Shown in pieces: positions 4,062 to 61,718 of a stretch of DNA of 64,000 bases (positions within the stretch are counted from its first letter, which is position 1; each line of letters begins with the position of its first letter). Location: assembly GCF_003314975.1 (NCBI RefSeq), contig NZ_QNRF01000002.1, positions 372,001 through 436,000 on the forward strand, in the 5' to 3' direction. Origin of the DNA: Marinomonas aquiplantarum (lineage in GTDB: Bacteria > Pseudomonadota > Gammaproteobacteria > Pseudomonadales > Marinomonadaceae). The notes beneath the pieces are model-generated. The model worked only from the letters and a program-made list of their open reading frames with translations. It made no database searches and had not been told where the DNA came from. Both the position numbers and the translations under genes were made by a program.

Positions 4062-4240
4062 GGGTTTCCCAAGTTGCCGTTTCGACTATTGGCCTTGAAC
4101 CCAGTGGTTCAAGGTGGAAAAAGCTGTGACTCTTTAGGCTTTCCGACGCACGGACATGCACACCAAACCAGCAGGCCTTTTCCGGGGTATTACTCATAGG
4201 CTCAAGGGCGTTAAGCCGCTACGTACAACCCAGGAAACGA
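4062..4240 (-). ncRNA. ssrS: 6S RNA
   Basis: 6S RNA binds sigma70 RNA polymerase holoenzyme and represses transcription in stationary phase. On the minus strand I read CCCTTGAGCC, then GCATGTCCGTGCGTC, AGCCTAAAGAG, and CACCTTGAACC with its partner GGGTTCAAGG, all in the order and spacing of E. coli 6S RNA. The ends form a 13-bp closing stem, GTTTCCTGGGTTG (4226-4238) against CAACTTGGGAAAC (4064-4076), with a few G-U pairs. It sits between zapA and fau as in other gammaproteobacteria. Ends are inferred from the stem and the promoter; mature termini are not visible. Confidence 0.92.
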
Positions 4241-53864: not shown

Positions 53865-53936
53865 CTAAGGAAGGTGAGAATAAGTCCTCTTGCCTCAGCA
53901 TGAGAATAAAAGCTTGTTATTCGTTTCTTCCCTAAG
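53865..53936 (+). repeat. structured intergenic element, copy A
   Basis: A 72-base element begins CTAAGGAAGGTG and ends TTCTTCCCTAAG, so its ends can pair imperfectly. Its 26-base core (53869-53894) matches copy B (61655-61680) at 23 positions, and both share a later ATTCGT (53919-53924). An inner hairpin is GAATAA / TTATTC (53904-53909, 53917-53922). It lies beyond a terminator and about 155 bases before a kinase gene. The rest of the 53745-54091 gap is AT-rich. Confidence 0.65.
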
Positions 53937-54091
53937 CACTAAATGTTAATAATTAGAGGGACGCGGTTGAGGAGTGTTATATATTGTTTAGATTATGTAC
54001 TCTAGTCTTTTTTCGATGTTATGGTTACAACATTCACTTAAACGCATTAAATACCAGTATTGACCCTCGATCTATTTGAGAAAAGGCCTTG

Positions 54092-55897
54092 ATGAATTCA
54101 CGCTACACCCTTGGTGATAAACAAGTCAGTGAGATTAGTTTAAAGGATTTAGCGCGCCGCTCCCGCTTCGGCGGTTTATTTTATTTATTGGCATTCTGGG
54201 CCGCTGTATTCAGTTCTGCAACGGCCCGTGAGCATTTAGCGGTAATAGGCGCTTTTTCGGTTTGTTTTGTGCTGCTGCAGCTAAACCGTCTTTACCTTTA
54301 CCATAAGGTCTTTTCCAGTAACGCACTGTCTGTTCCGCGGTACTTTGCACGTTACTCCTTCGTTTATAATGCTTCTGCGCTTGTTTGGACCAGTGGTTCT
54401 GCATGGTTTTTTTACGTTAACCCATCGATTGATATCTCGGTCACTGTGAATGTGATGTCGGCTGCGGGGATCAGTATTGGTGGTGTGACCATATTGGCTT
54501 TATCTTATAAGATGCTCCGTAACTATTGTTTGCTGATAGGCTTACCTTTTGCGTTTGCTGCGGCGGCTTTTTTGGAGGGACCTGGTAATTGGATTGTCAT
54601 GGGGTTAATCATTGGATATGGCTTCTTTATTTACCTGACAGGGAAGCAGCTTAACGTCACTTACTGGCAAGCATTGAATGATAATTTGAAGTTGTCTGAG
54701 CAGGCAGAAGAGCTGGCCGCTGCGAAAGAAGCGGCCGAAGTTGCCGGTCAAGCTAAAGCCGATTTCTTAGCCGCCATGACCCATGAAATACGCACTCCTT
54801 TGAACGGCGTATTAGGAATGGCACAGCTACTTTCTATGGGAGATTTGAGTGACCAGCAACGTCAGCAAGTGACTGTTATAAATAATGCTGGAAGCACGTT
54901 AATGCATATCATTAATAATATTTTGGATTACTCCAAAATTCACGCACAACAACTGACCTTAGAAAAAACACCCTTTAGTCCACAAAATGTAGTGAATGAC
55001 GTGGTGCAACTGCTTTCAACACAGTCTGAAAAGAAGGGAATTAAGCTTTATTGTGATGTTCAAAATGTTCCTGAGTGTGTACTAGGGGACCCTCATCGGC
55101 TTCATCAAATTCTTTATAACTTGGTCGGTAATGCGTTTAAATTCACCCATGAAGGAGAGGTGGCCATTCAAGTGTCTGGCGAAAAACTAGCTGAGGACTC
55201 GAATGAGTACAGGGTGTCTTTTGCGGTTAAAGACACAGGGATTGGTATTGCGCCAAAGGATCAACAGCAAATTTTTGAGCAGTTCTATCAGGTTAATCAA
55301 TTTAATCCAGACATCCGAGGAACCGGTCTAGGTTTGAGTATCACTCAGCGTATAGTGGAACTTCTTGGTGGGACAATATCTTTGCAGAGTGAGCTTGGAG
55401 TTGGCACTGTGTTCACGGTCACTTTACCCTTTGATAAGGTAGAAAAAACGCCTGTGAAAAAAGTGGAATTGGCTCCTCAAAGCTTGGCAAGCGCGCCTGA
55501 GCTCTCGCCATCATTACGTGTATTGTTGGTTGAAGACAATAAAGTGAATCAAATCGTCTGTGAGCAATTTCTACTGAAATTAGGATGTCGTGTTGAGGTG
55601 GCGGAAAATGGGTTGATTGCCAAAGAGCGGTTTCAGCAGTCGCAAGTTTATGATGTGATTTTCATGGATTGCAATATGCCTGAAATGGATGGCTTTTCCG
55701 CTACTCGAGCCATTCGCCAGATAGAAGCAGAGCAGCAATTATCAGAAACACCAATAGTCGCTTTGACGGCGCACATCGAAGAAGACATCAAACGTAAATG
55801 TTTGCAGTCAGGAATGAACGCTTTTTTAAGTAAACCGTTTTTATTCGAAGACCTTGAGCGTGTGATTAATAGTGTACGTGTGGAACGAACAGACTAA
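54092..55897 (+). CDS. hybrid sensor histidine kinase
   Basis: 601 residues from ATG 54092, preceded by AAAAGGCC. About six membrane helices (28-190) form the input region with no obvious periplasmic domain. A short coiled coil (about 200-228; AEELAAAKEAAEVAGQAKADF) leads to HisKA with AAMTHEIRTPLNGVLGMA, then HATPase with LVGNAFKFTHEGEV, KDTGIGIAPKD and RGTGLGLSITQR. The C-terminal receiver domain (about 475-595) has VEDNKVNQ, the phospho-acceptor FMDCNMPEMDG, ALTAH and FLSKPF. No HPt domain or response regulator is adjacent. The signal is unknown. Confidence 0.93.
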   Translation: MNSRYTLGDKQVSEISLKDLARRSRFGGLFYLLAFWAAVFSSATAREHLAVIGAFSVCFVLLQLNRLYLYHKVFSSNALSVPRYFARYSFVYNASALVWTSGSAWFFYVNPSIDISVTVNVMSAAGISIGGVTILALSYKMLRNYCLLIGLPFAFAAAAFLEGPGNWIVMGLIIGYGFFIYLTGKQLNVTYWQALNDNLKLSEQAEELAAAKEAAEVAGQAKADFLAAMTHEIRTPLNGVLGMAQLLSMGDLSDQQRQQVTVINNAGSTLMHIINNILDYSKIHAQQLTLEKTPFSPQNVVNDVVQLLSTQSEKKGIKLYCDVQNVPECVLGDPHRLHQILYNLVGNAFKFTHEGEVAIQVSGEKLAEDSNEYRVSFAVKDTGIGIAPKDQQQIFEQFYQVNQFNPDIRGTGLGLSITQRIVELLGGTISLQSELGVGTVFTVTLPFDKVEKTPVKKVELAPQSLASAPELSPSLRVLLVEDNKVNQIVCEQFLLKLGCRVEVAENGLIAKERFQQSQVYDVIFMDCNMPEMDGFSATRAIRQIEAEQQLSETPIVALTAHIEEDIKRKCLQSGMNAFLSKPFLFEDLERVINSVRVERTD

Positions 55898-55948
55898 GCC
55901 TGTTTGAGGTATTTTATTTGCCTCCGCTATGTTTTCTTGATGCACTGC

Positions 55949-56986
55949 TTAGGATTCTAGTTCAACGCGATTACGACCTTTTTCCTTGCCTCGATAAAGT
56001 GCTTTATCGGCCCGTTTAATAATTTTTAAGGCGTTGTCTCTTTCCCCATGCAGTGTGGCGATGCCTAGGGTAATGGTTAAAGGGATTTGAAAAGAGCTAA
56101 AGCGGCCTTTAGCAATGATGTGTCTTAATTGCTCAGCAATCTTCTCTGCTGCTGATAGATCCGTGTTAGGCAAAACGATGATAAATTCTTCACCACCAAA
56201 ACGCGCTAAATAATGATGTACTTGAATACTTTCATTTAGTCGGTCCGCGACCTCGATAAGGCAAGTGTCACCTACATCGTGTCCATATTGGTCATTAATT
56301 TTTTTGAAGTAATCAATGTCAATCAGCATCAAGCAAAAGGGTGAGTTTATTTCCTTTGCCTGTTCTAATTCTTGCGCAAAGTGTAAGTTCAAGCCTCGTC
56401 TATTAAGCAGCTCTGTTAACGGATCCTGTAAATTTTCGGCTTTTAGTTTCTTTGTTAATTCTGTGTAGCGGTTGAGAAAAAACTGTCCAAACATGGCACT
56501 GAACATAATGGAGAGGATTAACCAAAACCCTCTTAGATAAGAGGTATGAGCGTCATAGTATTCGCCTGAAACATTGATTATGGTGTGGCTAAAAATCGTT
56601 GCGAATAGAATGGTCACGATTAAAAACAGACTCATTAAGAGTGATTCGACTCGTCCCCCGATCAAAGCGCCCACTATGGGGTATAACGGCAAAAAGAAGG
56701 CGACTTGACTGTTCACGCCCCCAGATATGAATAGCATGGGCAACATAATGATTAGAGCAGAAATAAGTGCTAGGGAAATGTGCCATTTAGGCCATTTATT
56801 CGAGCGCACCAAAACATATAAGCTGCCGGTAATGATGAGATCGAAGATGCCCAACCAGAAATAATATGGGTGTAATTCTGCAATGATCGGACGGGCAATC
56901 AAGGAAAACAGCAGGGTGACGAAAGCCACTTCGATGATTCTCAGGGTAAGTTTGTGATTTAACTGTGTTTGGCTTACGTCTGACAT
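55949..56986 (-). CDS. membrane-bound diguanylate cyclase
   Basis: 345 residues. Six predicted helices (about 12-172) are followed by a GGDEF domain (about 185-345) with DPLTELLNRRGLNLHFAQELE, LMLIDIDYFKKINDQYGHDVGD and the active site ARFGGEEFIIVLPN. The residue where the inhibitory RxxD aspartate would be is His, so product inhibition through that site is unlikely. It makes cyclic di-GMP. It is convergent with the hybrid kinase gene, with no clear terminator between them. Confidence 0.93.
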   Translation of the reverse strand: MSDVSQTQLNHKLTLRIIEVAFVTLLFSLIARPIIAELHPYYFWLGIFDLIITGSLYVLVRSNKWPKWHISLALISALIIMLPMLFISGGVNSQVAFFLPLYPIVGALIGGRVESLLMSLFLIVTILFATIFSHTIINVSGEYYDAHTSYLRGFWLILSIMFSAMFGQFFLNRYTELTKKLKAENLQDPLTELLNRRGLNLHFAQELEQAKEINSPFCLMLIDIDYFKKINDQYGHDVGDTCLIEVADRLNESIQVHHYLARFGGEEFIIVLPNTDLSAAEKIAEQLRHIIAKGRFSSFQIPLTITLGIATLHGERDNALKIIKRADKALYRGKEKGRNRVELES

Positions 56987-57234
56987 AGGGCACTTAAGTC
57001 TGCGTTGCTAAAATGATTTCCTCATCATACCTAACTGAAAATGTGTGTCTTTAGGTGATTTGTTAACGCGTTTTTATGCTACTCAGTACTAGCATAAAAA
57101 GAGGCGTTTGATAGGCATCATGGTGCATGAAATTAGGCTAAAAATCGAATTTTCAGAGATTTTATTTAGTCAAACTGAGTCTTGTTGCTAGATTGTGGTA
57201 GCGTTATGGCAAATGAAAGCGCTAAGGAATGAAA

Positions 57235-57954
57235 ATGCTGAAGAATAAATGGTTAACCTGCTTTAGTCTTGTCTTGTCGACCTTTACTAGCTTGTCGGTA
57301 TACGGTGAAACGTTAGAAGTGCCAAGATGGTTTGAAATCATGTACGTGGATCAACAAGCGGCCAAACAATTTGGTAATGATTTTGAAGTGTCGTTAACGC
57401 CAGGACAGCATCAAATTGTGTTGCGCTTTAATAAAATTTTGCGCACTGGTGGCGATTCAGAAGTGTTTCAATCTGAGCCTATTGTGATGGATGTAGACGT
57501 CACTCAAGGGGCTTACTTACAGCTTAAAGCGCCTTACATATCATCTTCTCGACAAGCCGAAGAGTACGCTGCGGCTCCAACATTTACACTGCATGATGAG
57601 GCCAGTGGTCGAGAGGTTAGTTATCAAAAGCGGGTGTTGAAAGAAAAAGCGGGGTTGCAAAATTTGCGAGATTATCTGGCTGAAGTAAAGCAACTCAATA
57701 ACCGTACTGTTGAGGATTCTAATGGTCCGAGCGCGGCCCCTTCGCGTATGGAGACGGATCCAGCTCTAGAGATGATGAAGTTTTGGTACAACAAATCCGA
57801 TCCGGCAACACGAAAAGCCATGCGTATTTGGATTGCAGATGCTCAATACCAAGCGAAGGTTTCAAATATACAGCTAGATATGATGATGTTGTGGTACAAC
57901 AAGGCGGATGATGACGCTAAGAAAGCGTTTCAGATTTGGTTGGTGAACGAATAG
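57235..57954 (+). CDS. DUF2057 (YccT-like) exported protein
   Basis: 239 residues from the ATG at 57235, six bases after AAGGA; an in-frame ATG at 57229 sits on the ribosome binding site. A signal peptide ends near SVYGETL. The N-terminal two thirds match DUF2057: LEVPRWFEIMYVDQQAA, LTPGQHQIVLRFNKIL, YLQLKAPYISSSRQAEEYA. The C-terminus carries two copies of a 25-residue unit (EMMKFWYNKSDPATRKAMRIW and DMMMLWYNKADDDAKKAFQIW). E. coli YccT affects curli assembly; the role here is unknown. Confidence 0.83.
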   Translation: MLKNKWLTCFSLVLSTFTSLSVYGETLEVPRWFEIMYVDQQAAKQFGNDFEVSLTPGQHQIVLRFNKILRTGGDSEVFQSEPIVMDVDVTQGAYLQLKAPYISSSRQAEEYAAAPTFTLHDEASGREVSYQKRVLKEKAGLQNLRDYLAEVKQLNNRTVEDSNGPSAAPSRMETDPALEMMKFWYNKSDPATRKAMRIWIADAQYQAKVSNIQLDMMMLWYNKADDDAKKAFQIWLVNE

Positions 57955-57973
57955 CAGAAGAAGCATTAAAGCG

Positions 57974-58009
57974 TGCCAATACCAATGACGTCGTCATGCT
58001 GTATTGGCA
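57974..58009. terminator. cruciform-like hairpin between convergent genes
   Basis: TGCCAATAC and GTATTGGCA pair over 9 bp and enclose a second palindrome, ATGACG-T-CGTCAT. It lies 19 bases after the DUF2057 stop and 12 before the EamA stop. No T-run follows, so it is a likely but atypical bidirectional terminator. Confidence 0.55.
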
Positions 58010-58021
58010 CTCTTCTATTAT

Positions 58022-58909
58022 CTAGTTGGTCTCGTTAACGAGATTGGCTCGAGCGGCAATTTTTTGATTAAACTTATCATTCACCCAGAGTGCCATGAGT
58101 ATGATGCCGCCACCAATGGTTAGGCGCATAATATCGGCATCACGATTCCAGAATAGGACATTGACTATGATGCCAGCTGGGATCAATAAGTTGTTGGCGA
58201 CGGCCAGCGTCCCAATGTTGACTAACGTTGCCCCTTTGTTCCAAGCAAAGTACCCAAGCCCAGAAGCGACAATACCAAGATACGTCAAAATGGCCCATTG
58301 TAGGGCAGTGGTTGGCAGTTTATCTGGGTTACCCATGGTCAAATAACATGGAATGACCACGGCCAGCGCTCCAATGAAAAACCAGCCAAAAACGGTTCTT
58401 TGAGGCAAATCAGGGCGCTGTTTCTCAATCACACGTTTGTAGCCAACTTGCCCTGCGGCAAAGCAAAGGTTAGCCCCTTGTACAATTAACAGTCCTTTAA
58501 TGAAGCCATCGTCGACCCCTTGATAACGAATGGCAACCGCTCCCAAAATCGCCAATAAGGCACTTACCGCAAATCCTACATTAAGTCGACGATCTAGAAT
58601 GTCATTCAATAGTGTGACATACAACGGCGTCATGACAGTAAAGAGCAGAACTTCAGGCACGGATAAGTAGAGAAAGGATTGGTAGTAAAAACCGTACATG
58701 ATACCAAGTTGTAATGCCCCACAAACCATCAGGAGTAAGGCTATTTTGGCTTCAATCTGGCGCAGTTTCAAAAATGGCAAAAATACCAATGTGGCTAATG
58801 AAACCCGCATCAGCACTGAAAACCAAGCATCGACTTGTCCGGCAAGATAAACACCAATCAAGCTAAAGGAAAAGGCCCATAATAGGGTCACGGCGAGAAG
58901 TATAGGCAT
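58022..58909 (-). CDS. EamA/DMT family transporter (RhaT-like)
   Basis: 295 residues with ten helices in two EamA repeats. Typical features are LLWAFSFSLIGVYLAGQVDAWFSVLMRV at the start, FTVMTPLYVTLLNDILDRRLN at the end of the first repeat, and GYFAWNKGATLVNIGTLAVANNLLIPAGI in the second. Metabolite or amino acid efflux is typical but the substrate cannot be inferred. It is divergent from ompW across 338 bases. Confidence 0.88.
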   Translation of the reverse strand: MPILLAVTLLWAFSFSLIGVYLAGQVDAWFSVLMRVSLATLVFLPFLKLRQIEAKIALLLMVCGALQLGIMYGFYYQSFLYLSVPEVLLFTVMTPLYVTLLNDILDRRLNVGFAVSALLAILGAVAIRYQGVDDGFIKGLLIVQGANLCFAAGQVGYKRVIEKQRPDLPQRTVFGWFFIGALAVVIPCYLTMGNPDKLPTTALQWAILTYLGIVASGLGYFAWNKGATLVNIGTLAVANNLLIPAGIIVNVLFWNRDADIMRLTIGGGIILMALWVNDKFNQKIAARANLVNETN

Positions 58910-59150
58910 GACTTAGATTCCGTTAATAAATTTGTCGCTAAGTTTACTGGCTTCTACTTAGGAGGGAAAGCAGTTTACTTTTCCAATTTTAAAAGTTTAC
59001 TAATGTTTTTTTTGCACATTATCTATGCTGCGAGTCAGTGTTTGGTTGCTTTAGTGAATATTGTCTTATTGTGAATTCTTTGTGGTAACACAGCTTTGTT
59101 TGACGTAAAGGCTTATTGCTTATCATGATCTTCTTTTGCAGGTGAGAACC

Positions 59151-59164
59151 TTGATCTAGATTAA
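59151..59164. promoter_or_regulatory. FNR/Anr-like box upstream of ompW
   Basis: TTGATCTAGATTAA matches the FNR consensus TTGATnnnnATCAA at 9 of 10 defined positions. It is 83 bases before the ompW ATG, compatible with a class II site if transcription starts near 59199. The rest of the 58910-59247 gap is AT-rich without other clear signals. Confidence 0.55.
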
Positions 59165-59247
59165 TTTTTTCTTTTTTTGAGCGAGTAGTTTAGTGGCTAA
59201 CACTTTGTTCTACAAAAAACACTATGTTCAATAAAAAGGAGTTGATT

Positions 59248-59859
59248 ATGAAAGCGATCTATCCATTGGTTTTAGCCTCTGCTTTGTGTTCATCGTTTGC
59301 TTTAGCGCACGATGCCGGTGACTGGTTTGTTCGTGGCGGTCTGGCGACAGTGATGCCAAATGAAAGCAGTGATGACGTGGCGGGCAACGGTGAATTAGAG
59401 TTGAATAATGATACCCAAGTGGGGGTGACGTTGACGTACATGCTGTCGGATAAATTAGGTTTGGAAGTGCTAGCAGCAACCCCTTTTACACATGATGTAT
59501 CGACTCGTGATCTTGGTAAAGTGGCTGAAGTCTCTCATTTACCGCCTTCTTTTATGGCGCAATATTACTTTGGTGAAGCAAACAGTCAGGTTCGTTCTTA
59601 TGTAGGTGCTGGCTTGAATTACACGATTTTCTTTGACGAAGAAGGTAAAGGGGCTCTAGCTGGTACAGATGTGAGTCTAGATAACTCTTTCGGTTTGGCT
59701 GCTCAAGTTGGCGTTGACGTAACCTTCGCTGACAATTGGTTCGCTAACGCGTCGCTCTGGTATATGGACATTAATACGGATGTAGAGACGACAGTTGGCA
59801 CCATCGATGCTGACATTGATCCGATCACGTTTATGGCCAGTGTCGGTTACACTTTTTAG
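59248..59859 (+). CDS. ompW: OmpW-family outer-membrane protein
   Basis: 203 residues from ATG 59248 with AAAAAGGAG upstream; the ATG at 59224 is rejected because it precedes the signal peptide. A signal peptide ends SSFALAHDAG. OmpW features: GDWFVRGGLATVMPNESS, NNDTQVGVTLTYMLSDKLGLEVLAATPFTHDV, HLPPSFMAQYYFG, and the C-terminal strand FMASVGYTF. It is an eight-stranded barrel for small hydrophobic molecules in homologues. E. coli ompW is controlled by FNR, in line with the box upstream. Confidence 0.94.
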   Translation: MKAIYPLVLASALCSSFALAHDAGDWFVRGGLATVMPNESSDDVAGNGELELNNDTQVGVTLTYMLSDKLGLEVLAATPFTHDVSTRDLGKVAEVSHLPPSFMAQYYFGEANSQVRSYVGAGLNYTIFFDEEGKGALAGTDVSLDNSFGLAAQVGVDVTFADNWFANASLWYMDINTDVETTVGTIDADIDPITFMASVGYTF

Positions 59860-59918
59860 TGATTGAAGCGTCTCTATCAACTTAAGTTTTTAGATTGATC
59901 CAGACATTGTCCACTAAA

Positions 59919-59952
59919 AAAGCTCTTAGCGAGACGGCTAAGGGCTTTTATT
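59919..59952 (+). terminator. terminator of ompW
   Basis: AAAGCTCTTAGC and GCTAAGGGCTTT form a 12-bp stem with one G-U pair and a 6-base loop, then a T-run, 59 bases after the stop. Confidence 0.85.
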
Positions 59953-60005
59953 TTCGCTTTATACTAATCCATAATGTGCGCCAGTTTATGGTTTGAGTGA
60001 TCAAT

Positions 60006-60644
60006 ATGGTAGTGGAAGCGTTGGTGTCGTTTGAGCAAAGGTTTAGGTTTTTTTTACAGGCGCAGGAAACAGCGGATGTTGCTCATGACCTTAACCACAT
60101 TTTTCGAGTGGTAAAAGTGGCTAAGCAGTTAGCCGTTGAAGAAGGTGCAGAGCTTGATGTCGTGGTGCCTGCAGCTTGGTTGCACGATTGTGTGTCATTG
60201 CCTAAAAATCACCCTCAGCGTGCTTTCGCATCTCGTATGGCGGCAGATAAAGCTGTGGCCTTTTTGCGTTCAATTGATTACCCAGAATGCTTTTTAGAGG
60301 CGATTCATCACTGTATTTGTGCCCACAGTTTTAGTGCGCAAATAACGCCGAAAACCATTGAAGCAGAGATTGTTCAGGACGCTGATCGTTTGGATGCTCT
60401 GGGCGCGATTGGAGTCGCTCGTTGTATGCAGGTCAGTGGCGCACTCAATCGCGCCTTGTATCATACCGATGACCCTTTTTGTGAGTCTCGACCTTTAGAC
60501 GACAAACACTATTCGATTGATCATTTCTTTGTGAAACTTTTCAATATTTCCGATTCATTAAAGACCGCAGCTGCGCGTCGTGAAGGAAAACGACGTGAGA
60601 GCTTTATGCGGCAATTCTTAACTCAGCTGGAAGAGGAAATCTAG
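60006..60644 (+). CDS. HD-domain hydrolase (YedJ-like)
   Basis: 212 residues from ATG 60006; an in-frame GTG at 59997 is an alternative start. HD motifs are complete: HDLNHIFRVVKVA, then AWLHDCVSLPKNH with the HD pair, and QDADRLDALGAIGVARCMQV. These match the YedJ type of metal-dependent phosphohydrolase. Cytoplasmic, nucleotide-type substrate likely but unknown. Its stop overlaps the convergent MarR stop by 4 bases. Confidence 0.9.
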   Translation: MVVEALVSFEQRFRFFLQAQETADVAHDLNHIFRVVKVAKQLAVEEGAELDVVVPAAWLHDCVSLPKNHPQRAFASRMAADKAVAFLRSIDYPECFLEAIHHCICAHSFSAQITPKTIEAEIVQDADRLDALGAIGVARCMQVSGALNRALYHTDDPFCESRPLDDKHYSIDHFFVKLFNISDSLKTAAARREGKRRESFMRQFLTQLEEEI

Positions 60645-61093
60645 TCTCCTCTTTCGGCATTAAATTCATTCATATTCTGAATCATTTTTTGACCTATGGT
60701 TAAAAACTGACTCAATTCCTCATCGGTTAAACCCGTTTTTAAGGCATTTAATGTAGCATAATCTGCTTGCTGAAGTGCTTCAAAGATAGATTCACCTTGT
60801 TCCGTAAGGGTCAATATTTGACTGCGTTTATCTTTCGGGTTGGGGTGCTTTTCAATCAGTCCCTGATCAATCAATTCTTTTAATAATCGAGTAATTTGTC
60901 CTTTATCTTTGTAGGTCATTTCTGCAATTGAATGAGCGGTACATTCCGCTGTGTCATGGATGCTTTTCAGCATCAGGAAAGACAAGGGCGTTAGTGAAAG
61001 TTGTTGGCGTTTCATTGTTTGCTTCATAGACCTTTGTAGGCCAATTATGGTTTGCACAAAGATCTGTTGTAACTGAGATTCGAAATGAGGCAT
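60641..61093 (-). CDS. MarR-family regulator
   Basis: 150 residues from the ATG at 61093; a TTG at 61129 is in frame but lies inside the operator-like repeat, so the shorter form is preferred. The winged helix is clear: LTPLSFLMLKSIHD, AHSIAEMTYKDKGQITRLLKELIDQGLIEKHPNPKDKRSQILTLT. It is divergent from a DUF2798 membrane protein gene and very likely represses it and itself through the repeats at 61116-61159. Confidence 0.88.
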   Translation of the reverse strand: MPHFESQLQQIFVQTIIGLQRSMKQTMKRQQLSLTPLSFLMLKSIHDTAECTAHSIAEMTYKDKGQITRLLKELIDQGLIEKHPNPKDKRSQILTLTEQGESIFEALQQADYATLNALKTGLTDEELSQFLTIGQKMIQNMNEFNAERGD

Positions 61094-61115
61094 AGAGACT
61101 AAGGATTCCAATTTG

Positions 61116-61159
61116 GTTGACAAGGTCAACTTGTTGATGCAATAATTGACATTATCAAC
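61116..61159. promoter_or_regulatory. MarR operator-like repeats
   Basis: GTTGACAAGGTCAAC (61116-61130) is a perfect 6-3-6 palindrome. GTTGAT (61133-61138) and ATCAAC (61154-61159) form a second inverted pair with 15 bases between them; TTGACA inside it (61146-61151) could be the -35 of the DUF2798 gene. Together they fill the divergent promoter. Confidence 0.6.
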
Positions 61160-61204
61160 TACTTCTTCTGAGTAGACAACTAAAATCCCCCTGAGAGAAT
61201 ACTT

Positions 61205-61654
61205 ATGTCAAAAATGCTTCAAAAAATTGCCATCATTGCCAGTTTAGTTACGGTTATGGGGGGCACACTGACTTTTGTCATGACCTGGCGTAATCTGGGG
61301 TTTGGTGATGACTTTATGATGTCTTGGCTATCAACTTTTGCGTTGTGCGTATTGTGTATTGCGCCAATTGGAGGTGTGATTTCCTATTTAGTGCATCGTT
61401 TGGTGGATGGCACTTTGCCTAACGTCTCTAAGCTGAAACAAGACCTAGTATTCGGTTTGATTATGGCGTTGATAATGGAATCCATTATGGCGGTTGTCAC
61501 TACCATCAACTTACATGGCTGGTTGGCGATAGAGGCTTTCATTAAACAATGGGGGGTGACCTTCCTAGCCGCGCTGCCTATGGGCATTGTTTTTTCTATG
61601 TTGATGTCTTTAGTCATTAAGCGTCGCCTGACGGCTTATTTGGTTAAAGCCTAG
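61205..61654 (+). CDS. DUF2798 membrane protein
   Basis: 149 residues with four helices in two DUF2798 repeats: about 8-65 (TFVMTWRNLGFGDDFMMSWLSTFALCVLCIAPIGGVISYLVHRLVD) and about 80-140 (VVTTINLHGWLAIEAFIKQWGVTFLAALPMGIVFSMLMSLVIKRR). Function unknown; the family is often beside a MarR or TetR gene, as here. The stop codon lies within the first bases of the structured element B. Confidence 0.87.
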   Translation: MSKMLQKIAIIASLVTVMGGTLTFVMTWRNLGFGDDFMMSWLSTFALCVLCIAPIGGVISYLVHRLVDGTLPNVSKLKQDLVFGLIMALIMESIMAVVTTINLHGWLAIEAFIKQWGVTFLAALPMGIVFSMLMSLVIKRRLTAYLVKA

Positions 61655-61718
61655 GGAAGGTGGGAGTAAGCCCTCTTGCCCTGCGAGTCTTAGTAGACTA
61701 ATTCGTACCTTACCTAGG
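61650..61718 (+). repeat. structured intergenic element, copy B
   Basis: The ends CCTAGGGAAGGT (61650-61661) and ACCTTACCTAGG (61707-61718) pair at 11 of 12 positions. The 26-base core matches copy A at 23 positions, and ATTCGT at 61701-61706 is also shared. The inner hairpin AGTCT-TAGT-AGACT (61686-61699) differs in sequence from that in copy A. It fills the gap between the DUF2798 gene and convergent modC and may also act as a terminator. Confidence 0.65.

Follow-up and report, generated by a model that had tools for sequence, protein, structure and literature searches.

Two short intergenic repeats of Marinomonas aquiplantarum are, with high probability, internally deleted copies of an IS5-type MITE family

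Introduction

A 64,000-nucleotide stretch of Marinomonas aquiplantarum DNA (hereafter the window; C2:372001-436000 in a 3.77-Mb genome of 30 contigs) contains two short intergenic sequences, copies A and B, that resemble each other at their ends and in a core sequence. What kind of element are they, and what is the basis for the different sequences found in their interior? The original prediction left three options side by side, a REP-like palindrome, a MITE-like mobile element and an RNA motif. The YTAR duplications of 4 bp, the IS5-type ends, the dispersal of the copies and the existence of empty sites make us highly confident that A and B belong to a family of non-autonomous MITEs in Marinomonas whose ends are of the IS5 type; the MITE-like option is thereby upheld, while neither a REP nor an RNA motif is supported. 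This gives a name and an origin to a repeat that might have passed for an unknown RNA motif.

Two similar copies in the window

The two look-alike copies described in the original prediction are real, since the core GGAAGGTGNGANTAAGNCCTCTTGCC and the terminal inverted repeats were confirmed in the sequence of the window, as was the ATTCGT further along (Table 1). When the 16-base core was searched for with up to two mismatches, two matches were obtained in the window against a chance expectation of 0.36, a number that was reached in five out of 100 shuffles. The inverted repeat that had been delimited by CTARGGAAGG on one side and by CCCTAAG or ACCTAGG on the other is genuine, but its outer bases belong to the flanking 4-bp target duplication; both copies are bordered by a perfect duplication of the YTAR type.

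Table 1. Positions of the two MITE copies and of their target-site duplications in the window.
Feature	Position	Strand	Remarks
Copy A, left target-site duplication	53865..53868	.	CTAA (YTAR)
MITE copy A	53869..53931	+	63 bp; form with an internal deletion, its junction at the TTATTCG direct repeat
Copy A, right target-site duplication	53932..53935	.	CTAA
Copy B, left target-site duplication	61651..61654	.	CTAG; includes the TAG (61652-61654) that terminates the upstream DUF2798 gene
MITE copy B	61655..61713	+	59 bp; combines the left end of the 262-bp form with its right subterminal region (GCGAGTCTTAGTAGAC)
Copy B, right target-site duplication	61714..61717	.	CTAG

Copy A follows a phytase-like gene, has a hybrid histidine kinase gene as its other neighbour and lies, as had been claimed, beyond a strong terminator that can be read directly in the sequence (AAGAGCGCATTGGCGCTCTTTTTTTTT). 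Two convergent genes flank copy B, a DUF2798 gene and an ABC-transporter (TOBE-domain) gene; the insertion point of B coincides with the DUF2798 stop codon, and the TAG is preserved by the duplicated CTAG. The gene neighbours of A and B are thus unrelated and have no context in common. A regulatory job for the two copies is unlikely, and as the gene upstream of copy B retains its stop codon, the insertions probably sit at places where they do little harm. Far from both copies, the window also carries a 6S RNA gene on the minus strand (4062-4239; RF00013, 106.9 bits).

IS5-like ends, target duplications and empty sites

IS5 inserts at the target YTAR, which is duplicated in the process (PMC10359306). 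The annotated ends of the Escherichia coli K-12 element IS5A are GGAAGGTGCGAACAAGTCC... and GGAAGGTGCGAATAAGC..., so that the element starts with GGAAGGTGCGAACAAGTCCCTGAT and, when read from the opposite end, with GGAAGGTGCGAATAAGCGGGG. The terminal inverted repeats of the Marinomonas family are GGAAGGTGYGAA... on the left and ...TTCGTACCTTCC on the right; its left consensus GGAAGGTGYGAACAAGTCC equals the first IS5A end over 19 bases, from which A and B deviate by a few substitutions. IS5A (transposase gene insH) and the MITE hence share the terminal 16-19 bp and the YTAR target, whereas IS5A is 1195 bp in size and codes for a transposase; only the ends are common to both.

The flanks of the wider family were assessed in 108 distinct copies, 90 of which possess a recognisable right end. 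YTAR is present at the left flank of 90 of the 108 copies and at the right flank of 74 of the 90. The same 4-mer occurs on both sides in 55 of these 90 copies with a right end, far more than when the right flanks were shuffled among copies (2000 trials; mean 20.2, maximum 32); an identical duplication is absent from the other 35, as expected of decayed copies.

Related genomes provide empty sites. In the near relative G036, the joined flanks of the B site match over their full length (86%), what is lacking there being exactly the element and a single target copy, and the B site is likewise empty in genome G027. At the A site of G036 the element is also missing, and the junction is off by a few bases, which makes this a nearly clean empty site. 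At the G027 locus orthologous to A (L155), another insert occupies this intergenic region and directly follows the terminator; it is independent of copy A, has an IS5-like end and terminates like a family member facing in the opposite direction. The intergenic spot of copy A may be a tolerant target.

The family accordingly displays the traits of a MITE (short length, no transposase gene, terminal inverted repeats, target-site duplication, dispersal, empty sites) together with those of the IS5 type (an end matching the IS5 terminal repeat, YTAR target). As we envision its movement, the full form of about 262 bp, a gene-less unit with IS5-like terminal inverted repeats, would be bound at these ends by an IS5-family DDE transposase encoded elsewhere; the transposase would then transfer the element to a YTAR tetranucleotide, and this target would become duplicated.

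Size and distribution of the family

Copies were counted by pattern search. The extended core GGAAGGTGNGANNAAGNNCNNTTGNC yielded 21 matches in the genome of the window when up to three mismatches were allowed, far above chance as judged from the single match of the reversed control, and searches with the right end added a few further places. By inspection, about 17 true family members are present in this genome, nearly all of them with YTAR just before the element. Among 48 Marinomonas genomes, the family core (up to one mismatch) was found in 16-17, with a maximum of 31 copies per genome; in the Marinomonas isolate G042, several copies are located at the ends of contigs. The further copies on which the original prediction depended therefore exist, both in the genome itself and in its relatives. 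Beyond the genus, an exact-match scan of a genome collection representing 84,980 species by one genome each returned matches in Marinomonas only, and plasmid and phage collections searched with the 262-bp form gave no match.

No description of Marinomonas MITEs was found in the open literature that was searched. The repeats hence apparently constitute an IS5-type MITE family, distributed over part of the genus Marinomonas, that is undescribed in this literature. No new mechanism is invoked by this assignment; the element is of a known and ordinary kind, and it is the family itself that is new.

Internal deletions of a 262-bp form

The most frequent length is 262 bp (26 of the 90 copies with a right end), and 24 distinct copies of this length are 90-99% identical to their own consensus. 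Copy A consists of the left 55 bases of this consensus and its right end, fused at the direct repeat TTATTCG (57 of 63 positions identical), while copy B is composed of the left 22 bases, eight bases from the middle (TGCCCTGC) and the right 29 bases (51 of 59 identical). Scores for colinear segments exceeded those of 100 nulls with a shuffled middle for both copies (A, 45 versus at most 33; B, 37 versus at most 29). The interiors of A and B differ because each copy arose from the 262-bp parent form by its own internal deletion. The "variable inner hairpin" of the original prediction is correct with respect to the differing inner sequence; it is not a variable structural part, but simply what remained after different deletions of the 262-bp element.

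Forms of 140, 163 and 167 bp look like intermediate deletions, and derivatives of the main form reach down to 50 bp. This clear series of deletion derivatives should be of use for annotation and for studying the minimum size at which an element can be mobilised by IS5. About 11 distinct sites carry the 63-bp form, and some of them have perfect duplications of their own, a hint that the 63-bp and the 50-59-bp forms could themselves be mobile rather than dead relics. We put this forward tentatively and with somewhat more doubt than conviction; the alternative is repeated in-place deletion at the TTATTCG direct repeat. If the short forms do move, they would be among the smallest elements movable by an IS5 transposase.

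Alternative explanations

REP or REPIN-type palindromes, which are moved by a RAYT (IS200/IS605-like) transposase, are also short, intergenic, palindromic and dispersed, and copies A and B might on this ground be assigned to them. REP/REPIN movement, however, is not known to generate a target duplication, and the presence of such duplications strongly opposes this reading: the 4-bp YTAR duplications occur far above the level seen after shuffling and are combined with IS5 ends, so that we attach practically no probability to it. A structured regulatory RNA or attenuator retained before or behind certain genes would account for the inverted repeats through which both copies can fold as a hairpin, yet it is very improbable in view of several properties of the copies. 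Their folds are only modestly better than those of shuffled sequences (z between -0.3 and -2.4), and neither copy is matched by an Rfam covariance model at the gathering score, the 6S RNA being the only match in the window. The conserved position before one gene type that had been proposed as a mark of such an RNA is not seen in these two copies, given the unrelated settings of A, behind a phytase-like gene, and B, between convergent genes. Moreover, close relatives have empty sites, and the inner differences arose by deletion, without compensatory change.

A MITE might also have been co-opted later, at some of its sites, as a transcription terminator or as a hairpin that stabilises mRNA. Both copies are intergenic and capable of forming a stem-loop, and the place of copy B between convergent genes would suit such a function. 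We nevertheless regard co-option as improbable, because the position of the element is not conserved among the related genomes compared at the A and B sites, and because copy A is already preceded by a strong terminator. A non-autonomous MITE with IS5-type ends thus remains our preferred reading of both copies.

Relation to MITEPsy1

The closest known system is MITEPsy1 of Pseudomonas syringae pv. phaseolicola, a gene-less element of 100 nt for which one size is reported in strain 1448A; it generates a 4-bp duplication (CTAG or YTAA), is regarded as a derivative of the IS5-family element ISPsy2, and its transposition has been demonstrated in the laboratory (PMC3189936). Its end GGAAGGTCTGAAAAAGCC is similar to GGAAGGTGYGAACAAGTCC of the Marinomonas MITE, and both elements are short, devoid of genes and flanked by a 4-bp duplication. 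The Marinomonas family, in contrast, has a main form of 262 bp with many derivatives down to 50 bp, and it is known from sequence alone.

Source of the transposase

None of the copies read carries an InsH-like sequence beside or between its ends. In the genome of the window, a PF01609 search gave no match, and a comparison with InsH detected a single 33-aa remnant of an IS5 transposase (L065; G000:C19:10383-10481) as the sole IS5-like coding trace found. From the lack of a transposase in the copies read and the presence of a mere remnant in their own genome, we infer that movement depends on a transposase supplied in trans. Because an intact IS5 transposase is lacking from this genome, the family may currently be unable to move in this strain.

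Elsewhere in the genus, IS5 transposase matches, at least partial ones, are present in 37 of the 48 Marinomonas genomes, with up to 74% identity to InsH over its full length. The Marinomonas IS5-family elements (e.g., L086-L103) resemble the MITE in their related ends, which for these elements follow the pattern GGAANNTGCGANNAAG, and in the YTAR that borders most of their copies; unlike the MITE, they possess an IS5 transposase and are about 1.15-1.2 kb in size. The intact elements encountered have ends such as GGAAGATGCGAATAAGTCC, and their right ends differ from that of the MITE. Since the ends deviate at several positions, none of these elements is a proven parent of the MITE, and among the Marinomonas elements read, which cover part of the transposase loci, none was an autonomous IS5 element with exactly the MITE ends on both sides. 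Which IS5 element supplies the transposase can accordingly only be inferred.

One copy of the family appears to be associated with a transposase gene of another kind. In genome G042 (L067; G042:C2), the MITE runs, from about position 1750, into sequence that by eye resembles an IS30-type transposase gene; a larger insertion sequence is apparently nested within the MITE at this locus.
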